In this document: positions 2,862 through 12,574 of the stretch, one piece after another
Layout: the number at the start of each line of letters is the position of its first letter
Numbering within the stretch: the stretch's first letter is position 1
Virus record (IMG/VR): IMGVR_UViG_3300023284_000693
Location: 1-40,516 of that record
From: a virus
Length of the DNA stretch: 40,516 bases
Direction: 5' to 3' (one strand)
The notes under the pieces: model-generated
Database searches by the model: none
Told to the model about the DNA's origin: nothing
What the model saw: only the letters and a program-made list of their open reading frames with translations
Program-made: the position numbers and the translations under genes

Positions 2862-3148
2862 CGCCGAAAACTACCCGCGCCCTACGCATTAGATATGCCG
2901 GATTCCCGGATGGGGAGTTAACTAATGGATGGGGCCATCCATGGATTGATGAACGCAGCGACCTTACAAAATGCTGGCAGCAATTCAACAGGGAAGGGCA
3001 GCCCTGTGGCTCCATGCTTTTTGGCGATGAAGGGCAAATAATCATGCAGTTTGAATCATGCGGCTGGAAAATTGAATCAATCATCATTGTATATAGGGCA
3101 GACGAATTTTATACTTATCTGTTTTCTTCATTGGCCATCCGTTCATGA
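2849..3148 (+). CDS. Small protein, 99 aa, unknown
   Basis: ATG 2849 is preceded by TTGGAGGGC, giving a good ribosome site within the end of the previous gene; the upstream TTG 2837 is part of that site. Contains repeated Gly/Trp turns (GFPDGELTNGWGHPWID) and predicted beta strands (SMLFGDEGQIIMQF). Probably a small beta-rich domain of unknown role. Overlaps the methyltransferase-like gene by 4 bp. Confidence 0.6.
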   Translation: MDNLTPKTTRALRIRYAGFPDGELTNGWGHPWIDERSDLTKCWQQFNREGQPCGSMLFGDEGQIIMQFESCGWKIESIIIVYRADEFYTYLFSSLAIRS

Positions 3149-3825
3149 GAGTTCTAATTGGCTGCGAGAAAAGTGGCATCGTCCGCGATTGGTTTACCAC
3201 CCTTGGCCATGACGCCTGGAGTTGTGACCTTCAGCCCAGCGACAGACCAGGTAATCATCTGCAATGCGATATTGAAACGGTGCTGCACATGGAATGGGAT
3301 GTAATCATCCTCTTCCCCGAATGCACAGCTATGTGCGTATCCGGGAACTCCACTTATGCCGCAGGAAAACCAGGATTCCGCAAAAGACAAGAGGCGGTAA
3401 TGTGGACGTTTGATTTATGGTGCAAATGTTTGTTCATGGCTCAGTACGTTGTCATGGAAAACCCGGTCGGTGTTCTGGGAACCATGGCACCAATGCCTAA
3501 ACCCCATTTTGTTCAACCATACGACTTCGGCCATGATGCCAGCAAGAAAACCGGCTTCTTTCTGCATAACCTCCCACCATTGGAACCTACCATACGGTTT
3601 CCAGGTCGCTGGGTCATGGACAAGGGTATTCTCGTTGAGCGATGGTCAAACCAGACTGACACGGGTCACAATGTATTAGGCCCCAGCGATGATCGCGCGG
3701 AGATCCGGGGCCGCACCTACGACGGTATTGCTGAAGCCATGGCTAAACAGTGGTCGGCTTTCATGGCAGCGGAAACCCTGGAGCTGCAACGACAACTAAT
3801 CCATAAACTGAGAACACAGTCATGA
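3145..3825 (+). CDS. DNA cytosine methyltransferase-like protein, 226 aa
   Basis: Resembles the short C5-cytosine-methyltransferase-like proteins common in phages. The N-terminal SAM-site pattern is MRVLIGCEKSGIVRD (residues 1-15). Next is an acidic loop around SCDLQPSD (27-33), a PEC motif with Cys60 followed by SG, an ENP motif (105-107), and the K-T-G-F-F-L...LPPL.PT segment typical of this family's second half. Classical C5 enzymes have PPC or PC where this protein has PEC, and the target-recognition domain of restriction-type enzymes is absent. It could methylate phage DNA against host restriction or be a non-catalytic relative. Belongs to the early operon with ATGA overlaps on both sides. 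Confidence 0.75.
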   Translation: MRVLIGCEKSGIVRDWFTTLGHDAWSCDLQPSDRPGNHLQCDIETVLHMEWDVIILFPECTAMCVSGNSTYAAGKPGFRKRQEAVMWTFDLWCKCLFMAQYVVMENPVGVLGTMAPMPKPHFVQPYDFGHDASKKTGFFLHNLPPLEPTIRFPGRWVMDKGILVERWSNQTDTGHNVLGPSDDRAEIRGRTYDGIAEAMAKQWSAFMAAETLELQRQLIHKLRTQS

Positions 3826-3981: not shown

Positions 3982-4206
3982 ATGAGTGCCAACAGAAAAA
4001 TTACAATAGCAGTACAACGAGTGGAAGAAGCAAAATTTCATATATCATCTGCCCAGGAGTTCGAACGAAAACGCACTGACAATTACCCCTCCAATCTGCA
4101 AGGCACATGGGGCCATCAGAGAGCAGAGGAAAATGCTACTGAGTTGTTCGCTATATCAGTTGAATTTCAAAATCTTACTGAGCGACTTAAGAAGGTGCAA
4201 GCATGA
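3982..4206 (+). CDS. Small helical protein, 74 aa, unknown
   Basis: ATG 3982 follows an AACCGAGGATAAATGAT leader. The sequence reads as two long helices (residues 6-33 and 48-72) with heptad-like hydrophobics, so a small coiled-coil or helical bundle is likely. Stops with a 4-bp overlap onto the lipoprotein gene. Function unknown. Confidence 0.6.
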   Translation: MSANRKITIAVQRVEEAKFHISSAQEFERKRTDNYPSNLQGTWGHQRAEENATELFAISVEFQNLTERLKKVQA

Positions 4207-4451
4207 ATAAAGACAGACGAAAACAGATTATTGGCATTGTTGCACTGGTACTTATCGTATTGGCTGGTTGTGACCAATCCCCTTATATGCATGGGACCGT
4301 ACTTGAAGTAAATGATACTGGAGTCCGAGTAGAATGGACTGATGGAACTGTCGGTTCCTATCGAACTTCGGATGCCGCATTTATAGGGGACACCGCATGT
4401 GCCTATGCAGGTTCTGGCTATGTTTCTGTTGGATGTGGAGATTATAGATAA
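4203..4451 (+). CDS. Small lipoprotein, 82 aa
   Basis: Begins with Lys/Arg-rich residues (MNKDRRKQ), a hydrophobic stretch (IIGIVALVLIVLAG) and a lipobox VLAGC with Cys at residue 23, the hallmark of a lipoprotein signal. The mature part (about 60 residues) is a small beta-like domain with further Cys residues (CAYAGSGYVSVGCG) that could form a disulfide. It would be anchored in the inner or outer membrane. Phage lipoproteins expressed early often block superinfection; that role is inferred from type and position only. Confidence 0.75.
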   Translation: MNKDRRKQIIGIVALVLIVLAGCDQSPYMHGTVLEVNDTGVRVEWTDGTVGSYRTSDAAFIGDTACAYAGSGYVSVGCGDYR

Positions 4452-5374
4452 TGAAAATACAATACAGAACGCACAACTTTAAACCCAAAAGTCTGGAACT
4501 GATTGAGCGGGCTAACTATGTTATCCAAGAGTTCGAGGCCGATGGCTATACCGTTACGCTTCGTCAATTGTACTATCAGTTCGTGCGTCGATTGTGGATT
4601 GAAAACACGATGGAAAATTACAAAAGTTTCGGCGCAATGATTACCAAAGGTCGCTATGCTGGCATGATTTCATGGAAAGCCATGGAGGATCGAATACGGA
4701 ATATCAAGGAGTACAATTTCTGGGATGATGACCAGGCTTTGATTGATGTGCTGGCAGACCAAATCAAATTCGATTTATGGGCAGACCAGGATCATTATGT
4801 TGAATGTTGGGTCGAGAAAGATGCGCTGGTGCAGGTCATAGCGCGCGCTTGTAGGCCGTTGCAAGTACCCTACCTTTGTTGCCGTGGGTATATGTCAGCG
4901 TCCGAGGCGTGGGCCAGGGGGCAGAAAATGAAGGCCATGACAGAGGAAGGCAAGCAGTGTGTCATTATTCATGTAGGTGACCATGATCCTTCAGGAATAG
5001 ACATGACCCGCGATAACCAGGATCGTCTTAATGAGTTCATTGGACTTGATGACTTCAGCGCATCGGCCGGTATAGATATGCGCCGGGTCGCGCTCAATAT
5101 GGACCAGATCGACAAGCATGATTTACCTCCTGCACCCGCAAAGAAAAGTGACTCACGCAGTGAGGAATATATTGAGCAGTATGGCGATAATTCGTGGGAA
5201 CTGGATGCATTGTTACCCAAGGATCTTGTGAAACTTATCACTGATGCAATCAAACCACTCATTGACTGGGACCTATGGCACCAGCACGATGATGAAGAGG
5301 CAAAAATGAAAGACGATCTTGAAATACTGGCCGGTGCCTGGAGTGAAATTAAACGGTCGTTCTCCTATGATTAA
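4451..5374 (+). CDS. Topo VI-A/Spo11-like Toprim protein, 307 aa
   Basis: The N-terminal segment carries TLRQLYYQFV (residues 36-45), matching the catalytic-tyrosine winged-helix motif of topoisomerase VI subunit A and Spo11, with Tyr41 or Tyr42 as the candidate nucleophile. A Toprim domain follows: VEKDAL (121-126) supplies the metal-binding Glu, GYMSAS (146-151) a core strand, and GDHDPSGID (176-184) the D-x-D pair matching the DGDPYGI motif of Topo VI-A. It is shorter than cellular Topo VI-A. No B subunit or GHKL ATPase is encoded in the window. It may nick, cleave or relax DNA, or help recombination or replication start. Stand-alone Topo VI-A-like proteins are known from mobile elements. 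The ATG overlaps the previous stop by one base. Confidence 0.7.
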   Translation: MKIQYRTHNFKPKSLELIERANYVIQEFEADGYTVTLRQLYYQFVRRLWIENTMENYKSFGAMITKGRYAGMISWKAMEDRIRNIKEYNFWDDDQALIDVLADQIKFDLWADQDHYVECWVEKDALVQVIARACRPLQVPYLCCRGYMSASEAWARGQKMKAMTEEGKQCVIIHVGDHDPSGIDMTRDNQDRLNEFIGLDDFSASAGIDMRRVALNMDQIDKHDLPPAPAKKSDSRSEEYIEQYGDNSWELDALLPKDLVKLITDAIKPLIDWDLWHQHDDEEAKMKDDLEILAGAWSEIKRSFSYD

Positions 5375-5591
5375 ACTGACAGCCCAGTTTTATGAGGACA
5401 ATATTTACGGCTATATAAAATTCAGGGACTTGAAGCAGCACGAACAGGGAACCAGAGCGCAGCCCGCAGACATTAAAATTTTGAATGCTAATCTGTCGCG
5501 GGAAGCACATAAATCAATGAGGCGAGCAATCGCCAACGATATCAACGGCTATATTAAACCCAAACCAGCGGACAATAGGGATCTATTATGA
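5367..5591 (+). CDS. Small protein, 74 aa, unknown
   Basis: ATG 5367 overlaps the end of the Topo VI-A-like gene by 8 bp; a longer frame upstream lies inside that gene. Starts MIKLTAQFYEDNIYGYIKF and has a basic C-terminal half (REAHKSMRRAIANDINGYIKPK). The pairing with the Toprim gene could reflect a functional link. No family recognised. Confidence 0.6.
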   Translation: MIKLTAQFYEDNIYGYIKFRDLKQHEQGTRAQPADIKILNANLSREAHKSMRRAIANDINGYIKPKPADNRDLL

Positions 5592-6565: not shown

Positions 6566-7048
6566 ATGATATGCTTAGCCAAAGAAATGGATTATACCTT
6601 ATTGGAAATCACCAAGCATTTACCAATGCGCTCAATAGATAAAAATGATGGTCCATATCTCGAACGTTATTACGTTGGGCAGGATAGGCGTGGTGAACAG
6701 ACATGGCTGCATCGTTTTCTGTCGGCAGATGAGGATCAATTTTTGCACTCACATCCATGGTTTGCCGACTCCACAATAATTTGTGGTGGGTATACTGAAG
6801 AGAGTGCGAGAATTGACAGACTTAAGCGTAAAGTCACAGAGCGATTTAGCGTAGGCAACAAGAACATCATTAATCCCTGCACACTGCACAGGATTATCCG
6901 GGTTGATAAATATACATGGACCGTATTGCAGGTTCAACCAGGTCGGCGAAGATGGTATTTCATTGACGGAGAAGGACGGGTCAATGATATGAGTGGTGGA
7001 GAAGGGGAAGACTGGTGGCTGAATCACAAACCGAGAGGGGTCGTATGA
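6566..7048 (+). CDS. Cupin-like phage protein, 160 aa
   Basis: The core WLHRFLSADEDQFLHSHPW (residues 47-65), then IICGGYTEE, then a second half with LHRI...YTWTVLQVQPGRRRWYF, matches the cupin-like small beta-barrel proteins found widely in phages. His49, His61 and His63 could bind a metal. The enzymatic role of this family is not established. Preceded by AAGGTG as ribosome site; overlaps the next gene by 4 bp. Confidence 0.7.
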   Translation: MICLAKEMDYTLLEITKHLPMRSIDKNDGPYLERYYVGQDRRGEQTWLHRFLSADEDQFLHSHPWFADSTIICGGYTEESARIDRLKRKVTERFSVGNKNIINPCTLHRIIRVDKYTWTVLQVQPGRRRWYFIDGEGRVNDMSGGEGEDWWLNHKPRGVV

Positions 7049-7535: not shown

Positions 7536-7859
7536 ATGGCAACTGTTCTGGAAAAGCAATACAACAAATGGTTACGCAGTGTTTTGAGAGTGCCCAAGTC
7601 ATCAAAAATGCCACTTGTCACTGCTTATCTGTCAATGTTCAGAGGCCAGCGAAATGAAGCACTACGAAGCATTAACAGGCTTCGCAAAACACAATACCAA
7701 ATACGACGATTCAGAGAATGGGAAAGAGGATCTACCAAGCTGCCGTTACCCCTGAAGGCCCACATGCAAGAGGCTGTCATCAAGGCCAGATTCGGTGAGG
7801 TGGGGGTCGATTTACTTCGGCTGCTCGATCTGCAAAGCGACGATCAAAATTTGCTGTGA
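7536..7859 (+). CDS. Basic protein, 107 aa, possibly DNA-binding
   Basis: ATG 7536 follows the previous stop by two bases. Very basic in the first 65 residues (RSINRLRKTQYQIRRFREWERGS...). The pattern Y-Q-I-R-R-F-R-E-W-E-R-G vaguely resembles the recognition-helix end of small HTH proteins, a weak likeness. The last 48 bp overlap the 3' end of the opposing HTH gene, so the two messages would be complementary there. Confidence 0.6.
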   Translation: MATVLEKQYNKWLRSVLRVPKSSKMPLVTAYLSMFRGQRNEALRSINRLRKTQYQIRRFREWERGSTKLPLPLKAHMQEAVIKARFGEVGVDLLRLLDLQSDDQNLL

Positions 7860-8018
7860 TACCAGGAATGCCATGAGCTTTTCCACGGTAGCAGGCCTGG
7901 GGTTTCGTTGCGTACCGGCCATAATATTATAAATCGTTATCCGGGACAGGCCAGTGTGCTCTATGATGAGATGTGGTTTGAAGCTCGCCAGAACCGGCTT
8001 TAATTCTTCAATATCCAT
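7812..8018 (-). CDS. XRE/Cro-like HTH regulator, 68 aa
   Basis: The only minus-strand gene in the early half. ELKPVLASFKPHLIIEHTGLSRITIYNIMAGTQRNPRP (from residue 4) fits a helix-turn-helix of XRE/Cro type: HTGLS before the turn, RITIYNIMAG as recognition helix, and RNPRPATVEKLMAFL as the following helix. Start ATG 8018 has AAAGG ten bases upstream; ATG 8042 would add eight residues but has no ribosome site. It diverges from the gene at 8102, and the 60-bp gap holds a near-palindrome, the usual arrangement of an autoregulated repressor. It is the best candidate in the window for the protein that binds the GGCAC-N8-GTGCC sites, which is not proven. Confidence 0.75.
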   Translation of the reverse strand: MDIEELKPVLASFKPHLIIEHTGLSRITIYNIMAGTQRNPRPATVEKLMAFLVSQQILIVALQIEQPK

Positions 8019-8042
8019 GGCCCTGAAACCTTTGGTTGACAT

Positions 8043-8101
8043 TAATATTAGATGCCAGTATAACTGCCAGGCACATTTTGTCAATCAATGAGGAATATAA
8101 C
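8043..8101. promoter_or_regulatory. Divergent intergenic region with near-palindrome
   Basis: This short gap separates the HTH gene (left, -) and the replication module (right, +). It contains GCCAGT ATA ACTGCC (8054-8068), a dyad with one mismatch, then a lone GGCAC half-site (8070-8074), then the GAGGA ribosome site for 8102. Promoters for both directions must lie here or just inside the genes, but no strong -35/-10 pair is evident. Confidence 0.5.
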
Positions 8102-10530: not shown

Positions 10531-11076
10531 GTGGATGATTTTGGTTGGGTCGATATCGAAACTTACAGCCGGTATGATTTAAAAGAGGTGGGGGCCGATG
10601 TCTATTCGCGCAACTGCGAGATAATCCTGGCGAGCTATGCCTGGGGACTGGACGATATCAATTTGTGGGAGGTGGGACAGAACCCCGCCGAAGTGAAAGA
10701 GATGCTGGCCATGTCCAGGATCAACATCGCTCACAATGTCTGGTTCGAGTTCAACGTCTTTAAACGTGCTGGCTGGTGCAACCGCCCAATTTCCGATTGG
10801 CACTGCACCATGGCCCAGGCTCATGCACATTCACTACCTGGCAAACTCAGCATATTGGGCAAGACATTGGGATTGCCAGACGATCTGCAAAAGAAAGGTG
10901 ACGGTCTCAGACTGATTCGACTTTTTTGCAAACCTCAGCGCGGAGGGGGCAGATTGACCAAATTGGATTTACCCGAAGAGTGGGAACGCTTCAGACAGTA
11001 TGCCATAGGTGATACAGTCACATTACGAGAAGTTTACAAGCGTATGCCGAGGATCAATCTAGATGCGTGTTGCTGA
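10531..11076 (+). CDS. DNA polymerase A, 3'-5' exonuclease part, 181 aa
   Basis: Proofreading domain of phage-type family A DNA polymerase. Exo I is VDIETYS (Asp8, Glu10), Exo II NIAHNVWFEFNVF (about 65-77), and Exo III YAIGD (Tyr157, Asp161). Starts at GTG 10531. The frame stops at 11076, 14 bp into the polymerase ORF, which is in the +1 frame. In relatives the two parts form one protein of about 650-700 residues, so either the enzyme is truly split and coupled, or a single-base frameshift (natural or sequencing) separates it. Confidence 0.85.
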   Translation: MDDFGWVDIETYSRYDLKEVGADVYSRNCEIILASYAWGLDDINLWEVGQNPAEVKEMLAMSRINIAHNVWFEFNVFKRAGWCNRPISDWHCTMAQAHAHSLPGKLSILGKTLGLPDDLQKKGDGLRLIRLFCKPQRGGGRLTKLDLPEEWERFRQYAIGDTVTLREVYKRMPRINLDACC

Positions 11077-12574
11077 ATTCGAAAGAAGCCTATGGCTATT
11101 GGACCAAAAAATAAACAGTCTTGGTTTCATGGTCGATACAGCACTTGCGAAGAAAGCAGCCCTTGCTTGCCAAAAAGAAAAAGTCGAACTGGATGCATTG
11201 GTGGACAAGCTCACACTGGGCAAAATCCAAAGTGCAAACCAGCGTGAAAAGCTCAAAGACTTCCTTTTCACAATCGGCTGTGATCTGCCTAACATGCAAG
11301 CTAAAACAATTGAAGAAGCATTGGATGACGGCGCAAGTGGAGAAATAAAACAATTGCTTGAAGCCCGTCAACGGGTATCCAAATCCAGCACAGCCAAATT
11401 CCTCAGAATTCTATCTGCCATCGGACCCGACGGGCGAATGCGAGGTGGTCTCCAGTTTTGCGGTGCTTCACGCACAGGCCGGTGGGCAGGTAGATTATTT
11501 CAGCCACACAATATACCACGGCCGTCCAGGGTATGGACCGTAGTAAAAACGTGCATCAAGATAATAATGGAAGGCTGGGCTGATGTGGTGACGGATAACG
11601 TACACCAGATGTGTTCTGATATCGGCCGTTCAATTATCATCGCCGCCAAGGGCAAGAAATTACTGGTTGCTGACTACTCCTCGATAGAAGGTCGAGTGTT
11701 ATGCTGGATCGCGGGCGAGATACAAAAGCTTGAAGCATACGCAAATAATGAAGATATGTACGTGCGCACCTATCGCAAGATGTTTGGCTTTGCGGAAACT
11801 ATCGAGATCTCAAAAGACAATCGGCAGAAAGGAAAATGCTTTGAGTTGAGCATGGGTTATGAAGGTGGAGTAGATGCCCTGGTCCAGTCGGCCAAGACCT
11901 ATAGCGTAGACTTGGATCAACTCGGCCATGGTACATGGATACATGCACCCGGGCACATCAAAAACAGAGCCAATAAAAACTATGCATTTGCCATCATACG
12001 AAACGATCCTGCTTTGAGAGTAGGTAAAAAAATGTACATCCAACTGGAATGTGCAAAACTGATTTGGCGAAGCACCTCACCCCGCACAGTCAAGCTATGG
12101 AAAACTTTGAACGGTGTCGCCATTGCTGCTATTGAGAATCCAGGTAAACGATATCGTGCAGCAAAATGCATGTTTATCATGGTGGGGGATACGTTGGCGA
12201 TAAAATTGCCGTCAGGGCGCTGCCTGCTTTATTCTCGTCCACGGGTCCACATAGAGAAAAAGAAGAGCAAGCGCAAGACCATCACATATCAGGGTGTTTA
12301 TGGTGGCCGTGAGAACCTGTATGGGGGAAAGCTGGCCGAGAACATCACATCGGCTATCTCTCGTGACATTCTTGGCTATGCCATGCTCAAGGTGGACCAG
12401 GCAGGCTTTCCAATTGTACTGACCGTTCACGATGAAATTATCGCCGAGGTGTGGCGAAAAGGAGCGCTGACCCTTAAAAAAATGATTGCTTTAATGCTGG
12501 AAATACCACGTTGGGCTATGGGCATACCACTAGCCATTGAGGGTTACCAGGATGTACGATACTACAAAAAATGA
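11063..12574 (+). CDS. DNA polymerase A, polymerase part, 503 aa
   Basis: Carries the palm and fingers of a family A polymerase: motif A ADYSSIEGRVLCWIAGE (about 202-218), motif B RQKGKCFELSMGYEGG (about 253-268) and motif C VHDEI (about 455-459) with the catalytic Asp residues. The N-terminal EFERSLWLLDQKINSLGFMVD is the usual linker that follows the exonuclease domain in single-chain relatives. ATG 11063 lies 14 bp before the exonuclease stop, without its own strong ribosome site, so translation would need coupling or frameshifting. It is the replicative polymerase of this phage. Confidence 0.9.
   Translation: MRVAEFERSLWLLDQKINSLGFMVDTALAKKAALACQKEKVELDALVDKLTLGKIQSANQREKLKDFLFTIGCDLPNMQAKTIEEALDDGASGEIKQLLEARQRVSKSSTAKFLRILSAIGPDGRMRGGLQFCGASRTGRWAGRLFQPHNIPRPSRVWTVVKTCIKIIMEGWADVVTDNVHQMCSDIGRSIIIAAKGKKLLVADYSSIEGRVLCWIAGEIQKLEAYANNEDMYVRTYRKMFGFAETIEISKDNRQKGKCFELSMGYEGGVDALVQSAKTYSVDLDQLGHGTWIHAPGHIKNRANKNYAFAIIRNDPALRVGKKMYIQLECAKLIWRSTSPRTVKLWKTLNGVAIAAIENPGKRYRAAKCMFIMVGDTLAIKLPSGRCLLYSRPRVHIEKKKSKRKTITYQGVYGGRENLYGGKLAENITSAISRDILGYAMLKVDQAGFPIVLTVHDEIIAEVWRKGALTLKKMIALMLEIPRWAMGIPLAIEGYQDVRYYKK

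Follow-up and report, generated by a model that had tools for sequence, protein, structure and literature searches.

The window analysed here is the complete virus record IMGVR_UViG_3300023284_000693, 40,516 bases in length. Its plus strand holds, exactly as the first-pass annotation had claimed, an intact 307-aa reading frame at positions 4451-5374, in which the motifs TLRQLYYQFV, VEKDAL and GDHDPSGID occupy residues 36-45, 121-126 and 176-184, respectively. We conclude that this gene almost certainly encodes a Mini-A protein, that is a stand-alone relative of Topo VI-A and Spo11, carried by a tailed phage. The gene and the two genes that overlap it are:

4203-4451, plus strand: 82-aa gene upstream of Mini-A, its stop codon overlapping the Mini-A start (TAATG); operon context only
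4451-5374, plus strand: Mini-A (Topo VI-A/Spo11-like) gene, 307 aa, assigned from PHROG 6247, identity with the phage NP1 protein and 229 non-redundant relatives
5367-5591, plus strand: 74-aa orphan gene downstream, overlapping the Mini-A 3' end

Because the Mini-A ATG overlaps the preceding stop codon and the next gene overlaps its 3' end, Mini-A is internal to a plus-strand operon. Up to about 16.8 kb, the plus strand carries genes for a DUF2800/PD-(D/E)XK nuclease, a Gp2.5-like annealing protein, DNA polymerase A, a PrimPol-AAA protein (PrimPol-helicase) and a helicase, and the minus strand encodes terminase, portal, major head and tail-fibre-type proteins. Judged by this replication-gene layout and by the overlapping gene ends, the early phage operon proposed in the first-pass annotation is a fair description of where Mini-A sits. 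Its surroundings are rich in small accessory genes.

The same annotation had drawn attention to a nearby methyltransferase-like gene and to a tiny partner gene. The former is real (3145-3825; PHROG 757, E 2.5e-47) and is separated from Mini-A by three small genes; its relatives occur at 7 Mini-A loci only, from about five distinct phages and in varied positions, and a linked pair was rejected on these grounds. The latter, the 74-aa gene, has no family in Pfam or PHROG, no phage match and no match in the loci of Mini-A relatives, and its role as a partner is unsupported. Relatives of the 82-aa upstream gene are likewise absent from Mini-A loci.

Three other observations concern the window. DNA polymerase A lies in two overlapping plus-strand frames (10531-11076 and 11063-12574), which match successive parts of PHROG 17; either the polymerase is split or there is a frameshift. 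A repressor-like HTH frame on the minus strand (7812-8084) is located inside the plus-strand operon, with a promoter-like TTGACA-16-TATACT at 8084-8057. The early region also contains a cysteine-dioxygenase-like gene (6566-7048, plus strand; PHROG 4786, E 4e-23).

Membership and distribution of the Mini-A class

The class to which the gene was assigned, Mini-A, is reportedly that of Takahashi et al. 2020. The 307-aa protein is covered over residues 1-300 by PHROG 6247, which bears the name "DNA topoisomerase" (E 2.1e-100); Pfam and NCBIfam gave nothing significant for it. The corresponding protein of Pseudomonas phage NP1, 41% identical over 287 aa (E 1e-77), is the one drawn as a Mini-A example in the legend of Fig. 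4 of PMC7614492. Homology to this example is full-length, and the window protein shares with Mini-A proteins their length, the catalytic set, phage or plasmid carriage and the absence of a B subunit. The same record also carries terminase, portal and major head protein, placing the gene on a virus. Together with the profile match to Topo VI-A described below, the NP1 homology bears out the first-pass assignment to the Mini-A class. By these comparisons the similarity is real and beyond chance. The nearest relatives are about 41-53% identical; the protein is thus a new sequence within a known class, with nothing that sets it apart.

Mini-A is widespread. Using tblastn, matches were found in 76 phage records, 70 of them across at least 80% of the protein, and in 54 plasmid records. 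Scans of viral contigs each returned more than 500 confirmed matches (at least 535-591 relatives per scan, one of the scans using an alignment led by the window protein), and a scan of genome contigs added 235. Carriers include an 8.8-kb archaeal plasmid (LC711082.1), on which the match is annotated "Topo Mini-A", and a 15-kb Paenibacillus plasmid (NZ_CP009289.1).

Two irregular members were encountered. In phage RDJL Phi 1 (HM151342.1, 14394-15265) Mini-A is in two pieces across gp26 and gp27, which suggests a frameshift in that record. A 672-aa apparent Mini-A fusion proved artefactual, having arisen because the earliest start codon was chosen in a GC-rich frame.

Conserved residues, predicted fold and relation to Topo VI-A

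The positions relevant to catalysis and folding are, all on the plus strand:

4484-4684: winged-helix (5Y-CAP-like) region, residues 12-78, from the secondary-structure order of the models and the TLRQLYY profile alignment
4562-4564: Arg38 codon, four residues before the Tyr, as is R102 in Topo VI-A
4574-4576: Tyr42 codon, predicted catalytic tyrosine, aligned with the second Y of TxRxxYY
4793-5092: Toprim core, residues 115-214, from the secondary-structure order and a match to the Topo VI-A Toprim profile
4814-4816: Glu122 codon, Toprim acidic residue, aligned with the E202 position of Topo VI-A
4979-4987: Asp177-His178-Asp179 codons, Toprim DxD, aligned with the D254/D256 position of Topo VI-A
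5198-5200: Glu250 codon in WELDAL, probable counterpart of Topo VI-A E342 from motif and spacing

R38, Y42, E122, D177, D179 and E250 are invariant in 229/229 non-redundant relatives spanning 27-53% identity. In an overlapping set of 180 sequences that includes annotated records, the sole departures are D179N in Haloarcula virus HCIV-1, which was entered twice. Y41, by contrast with Y42, is replaced by H or F in 25 of the 229 relatives. Topo VI-A chains from the PDB carry the motif TxRxxYY, whose second Tyr is, by counting, Y106 in 2q2e_A and Y103 in 1d3y; the catalytic residue of Methanosarcina mazei (M. mazei) Topo VI-A is Y106 (PMC13040014). Since Y42 is invariant, Y41 is variable and Y42 falls on the second Tyr of TxRxxYY, the likely nucleophile is Y42 and not Y41. 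Of the two candidate tyrosines named in the first-pass annotation, Tyr42 is therefore kept and Tyr41 dropped.

This conservation weighs on the idea that Mini-A has lost its cutting activity and serves as a DNA-binding or accessory protein. The name 'DNA binding protein' in two phage annotations would suit such a protein, as would our literature search, which found no published Mini-A activity; according to reviews, no archaeal Mini-A has been characterised. A dead enzyme would not, however, keep its Tyr and all metal-binding residues invariant across 229 sequences, and we consider a loss of cutting extremely unlikely.

AlphaFold models were built from 60 aligned sequences (pLDDT 90.6, pTM 0.82) and from 120 aligned sequences (pLDDT 94.2, pTM 0.86). 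In the N-terminal part, the models place a helix at residues 12-30, a bridge at 35, a helix at 37-46 that holds Y42, a helix at 54-69 and bridges at 70 and 78. A linker helix (94-104), a beta-alpha-beta-alpha-beta-alpha-beta arrangement (115-214) and C-terminal helices follow. The predicted order fits a winged helix followed by a Toprim domain. The helix-bridge order of the models is compatible with the winged helix that the first-pass annotation had expected ahead of the Toprim domain, but structural searching did not retrieve Topo VI-A: when both models were compared with the PDB using Foldseek, Topo VI-A was absent from the best matches listed, the top ones being spurious by TM-score. The first model had no clear viral relative in a nearly empty library of viral predicted structures. 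The Foldseek miss may reflect insensitivity of the method or a real structural difference.

For profile comparison we used a diverse 17-member Mini-A alignment (A1), which includes divergent archaeal and Streptomyces members, and Topo VI-A sequences taken as the letters of PDB chains and from 31 archaeal genomes. HHalign scored A1 at 43.4 against the 31 archaeal sequences plus 2zbk (80 column-shuffled decoys at most 24.4) and at 51.4 against three Topo VI-A PDB chains (80 column-shuffled decoys at most 27.9), and reversed profiles scored 14-16. The alignment runs from TLRQLYY, paired with TIRDLYY of Topo VI-A, through the Toprim domain. With deep phage-dominated Mini-A alignments the score falls to about decoy level, and so the sequence link to Topo VI-A rests on the divergent archaeal and Streptomyces members. 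In sequence searches, neither the window protein nor A1 matched any solved structure. An HMM scan covered about 1,950 proteins; outside Mini-A its top matches, to a Topo VI-A, an unrelated protein and a fused Topo VIII-like protein, were weak throughout.

TxRxxYY, the Glu and the DxD follow each other in the same order and at similar spacing in the window protein and in Topo VI-A. The two differ in that the window protein is about 64 residues shorter before the Tyr and has no companion GHKL B subunit. Because the Tyr lies at position 42 here and at 106 in M. mazei, the latch segment of Topo VI-A (residues 44-67, PMC13040014) has no counterpart.

In Topo VI-A, a salt bridge between R102 and E342, the clasp, keeps the Tyr off the DNA and holds the winged helix (WH) back, and an E342Q mutant of Topo VI cuts more (PMC13040014). 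R38 appears, from its sequence position, to match the clasp residue R102. E250 is probably the counterpart of E342: WELDAL resembles LEIEAM of 2zbk, and E250 lies 73 residues past the first Asp of the DxD, the equivalent spacing in Topo VI-A being 88. The automatic HHalign alignment did not recover the E250-E342 pairing. That clasp residues are invariant in proteins without the subunit thought to open the clasp is a point worth keeping, and whether E250 in a lone Mini-A acts like E342 of Topo VI bears on the control of both Spo11 and Topo VI.

The A-subunit module and the clasp residues are also found in Spo11 (PMC13040014), which differs in being eukaryotic and in working with TOP6BL-type and other partners. 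In Topo VIII, the type IIB enzymes of plasmids that come either fused or as two genes, a GHKL ATPase is fused or adjacent to the A part, whereas the 307-aa Mini-A has no extra domain. What seems to be a fused Topo VIII is encoded in one archaeal genome (L212, 1344-3920): an 859-aa protein whose N-terminus is of GHKL type and whose C-terminus resembles Topo VI-A. Its A half has IRQVFY, IEK and DCDIDG motifs as in Mini-A and scores above decoys.

Absence of a B subunit and possible modes of action

The GHKL ATPase domain (HATPase_c) is absent from the 40,516-base window. Of 45 Mini-A records, 44 had none and the remaining one, a Streptomyces plasmid, had a single such domain. The model for the Topo VI-B transducer (Topo-VIb_trans) found nothing in any of 46 Mini-A records, and archaeal controls were positive. 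This record set includes complete phage genomes (NP1, Delta, RcRudolph, Pam3 and others), together with IMG/VR records of which some may be fragments. These results support a Mini-A without a recognisable B subunit in cis, as the first-pass annotation had stated.

We also clustered 1,909 genes from 80 viral loci and the window. No gene accompanies Mini-A, and the neighbours cluster weakly. Immediately downstream lie mixed genes, such as a helicase (PHROG 62, 6/75), assorted HNH nucleases and integrases, and the genes immediately upstream are mixed as well, with repressor-like (Cro/CI-type) regulators in about 7/73. Mini-A thus moves without a fixed companion, and this speaks against an obligate encoded partner.

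These observations bear on whether Mini-A is a true topoisomerase that works with an unrecognised host or phage ATPase subunit, passing strands as Topo VI does and so ridding phage DNA of supercoils or tangles while it replicates. Such a role would agree with the database name, with the replication genes that Mini-A phages also carry and with the intact catalytic residues, among them the clasp, whose retention would be expected where an outside subunit does the opening. It sits poorly with the transducer count (0/46), the GHKL match in one record only, the want of a conserved neighbour as candidate partner and the N-terminal shortening (Y42 versus Y106) that removes the latch stretch. On balance we judge it quite unlikely.

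We propose instead, with about even confidence, that Mini-A may take part in early phage DNA metabolism as a B-independent 5'-tyrosyl DNA-cleaving enzyme, needing no ATP and cutting by means of Y42 and a Toprim metal site. More specifically, two copies would pair over bent or crossed double-stranded DNA, and each strand would be cut by Tyr42 of one copy together with the Mg2+-holding E122, D177, D179 and probably E250 of the other. Mini-A would be left joined to the 5' ends through Tyr42, and an ATPase B subunit would take no part in the cutting. The winged helix would be restrained by the Arg38-Glu250 pair and move into place only under the influence of DNA shape, not of ATP. As to the role, our guess is that early in infection Mini-A might act on replication or recombination intermediates of the phage, either introducing breaks into them or sealing breaks reversibly.

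Cutting by a lone Mini-A is supported by the invariant catalytic set, by the lack of a B subunit and by the presence on the same strand of DNA polymerase A, the PrimPol-helicase, the DUF2800 nuclease and the Gp2.5-like gene. Against it counts the behaviour of Topo VI, in which ATP-driven closure of the B subunit brings the Tyr into place (PMC13040014), a step that a lone A-like protein would have to do without. The Foldseek result without Topo VI-A, the score drop with phage alignments and the unrecovered E250-E342 pairing count against it as well. A stronger version, in which a self-sufficient Spo11-like enzyme has its R38-E250 clasp opened by DNA shape alone and the phage uses programmed 5'-tyrosyl breaks to start replication or recombination, seems to us unlikely.

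A related possibility is that Mini-A starts replication: Y42 would nick or cut a phage origin and stay on the 5' end, and the 3'-OH would prime synthesis or recombination-dependent replication, in the manner of HUH Rep or Spo11. Members of the family are known to become linked to the 5' end and to leave the 3' end free (PMC13040014), and the annealing protein and nuclease of the window suit recombination. The two small plasmids mentioned above also speak for it, as no Pfam replication initiator was found among the ten other proteins scanned on them, which are part of their genes. The window has its own PrimPol-helicase, however, so that a nick is not needed for priming, and the family's neighbours are varied; we regard an initiator function as rather improbable.

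Mini-A could also be a nuclease directed against other DNA, such as the host chromosome, plasmids or competing phages. JetD/MksG of Wadjet and GajA of Gabija share a distantly related Toprim module, and distant TOPRIM dimers of this kind are the nucleases of Wadjet/MksBEFG and Gabija (PMC13040014). Some Mini-A members match DUF2399, a weak similarity (best E 1.6e-4), and the many small accessory genes around Mini-A would suit such a role. Unlike JetD and GajA, however, Mini-A has a strictly conserved Tyr, which at 229/229 points to Tyr-linked and not hydrolytic cutting, and it lacks an SMC or GajB partner. Its neighbours have no SMC or ABC-type protein in common, and no Wadjet JetABC/SMC genes were found among the annotated neighbours in the window or the genes common to relatives. 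A nuclease directed against other DNA is, in our assessment, very unlikely, and tyrosine-linked cutting by Mini-A is the reading that we prefer.
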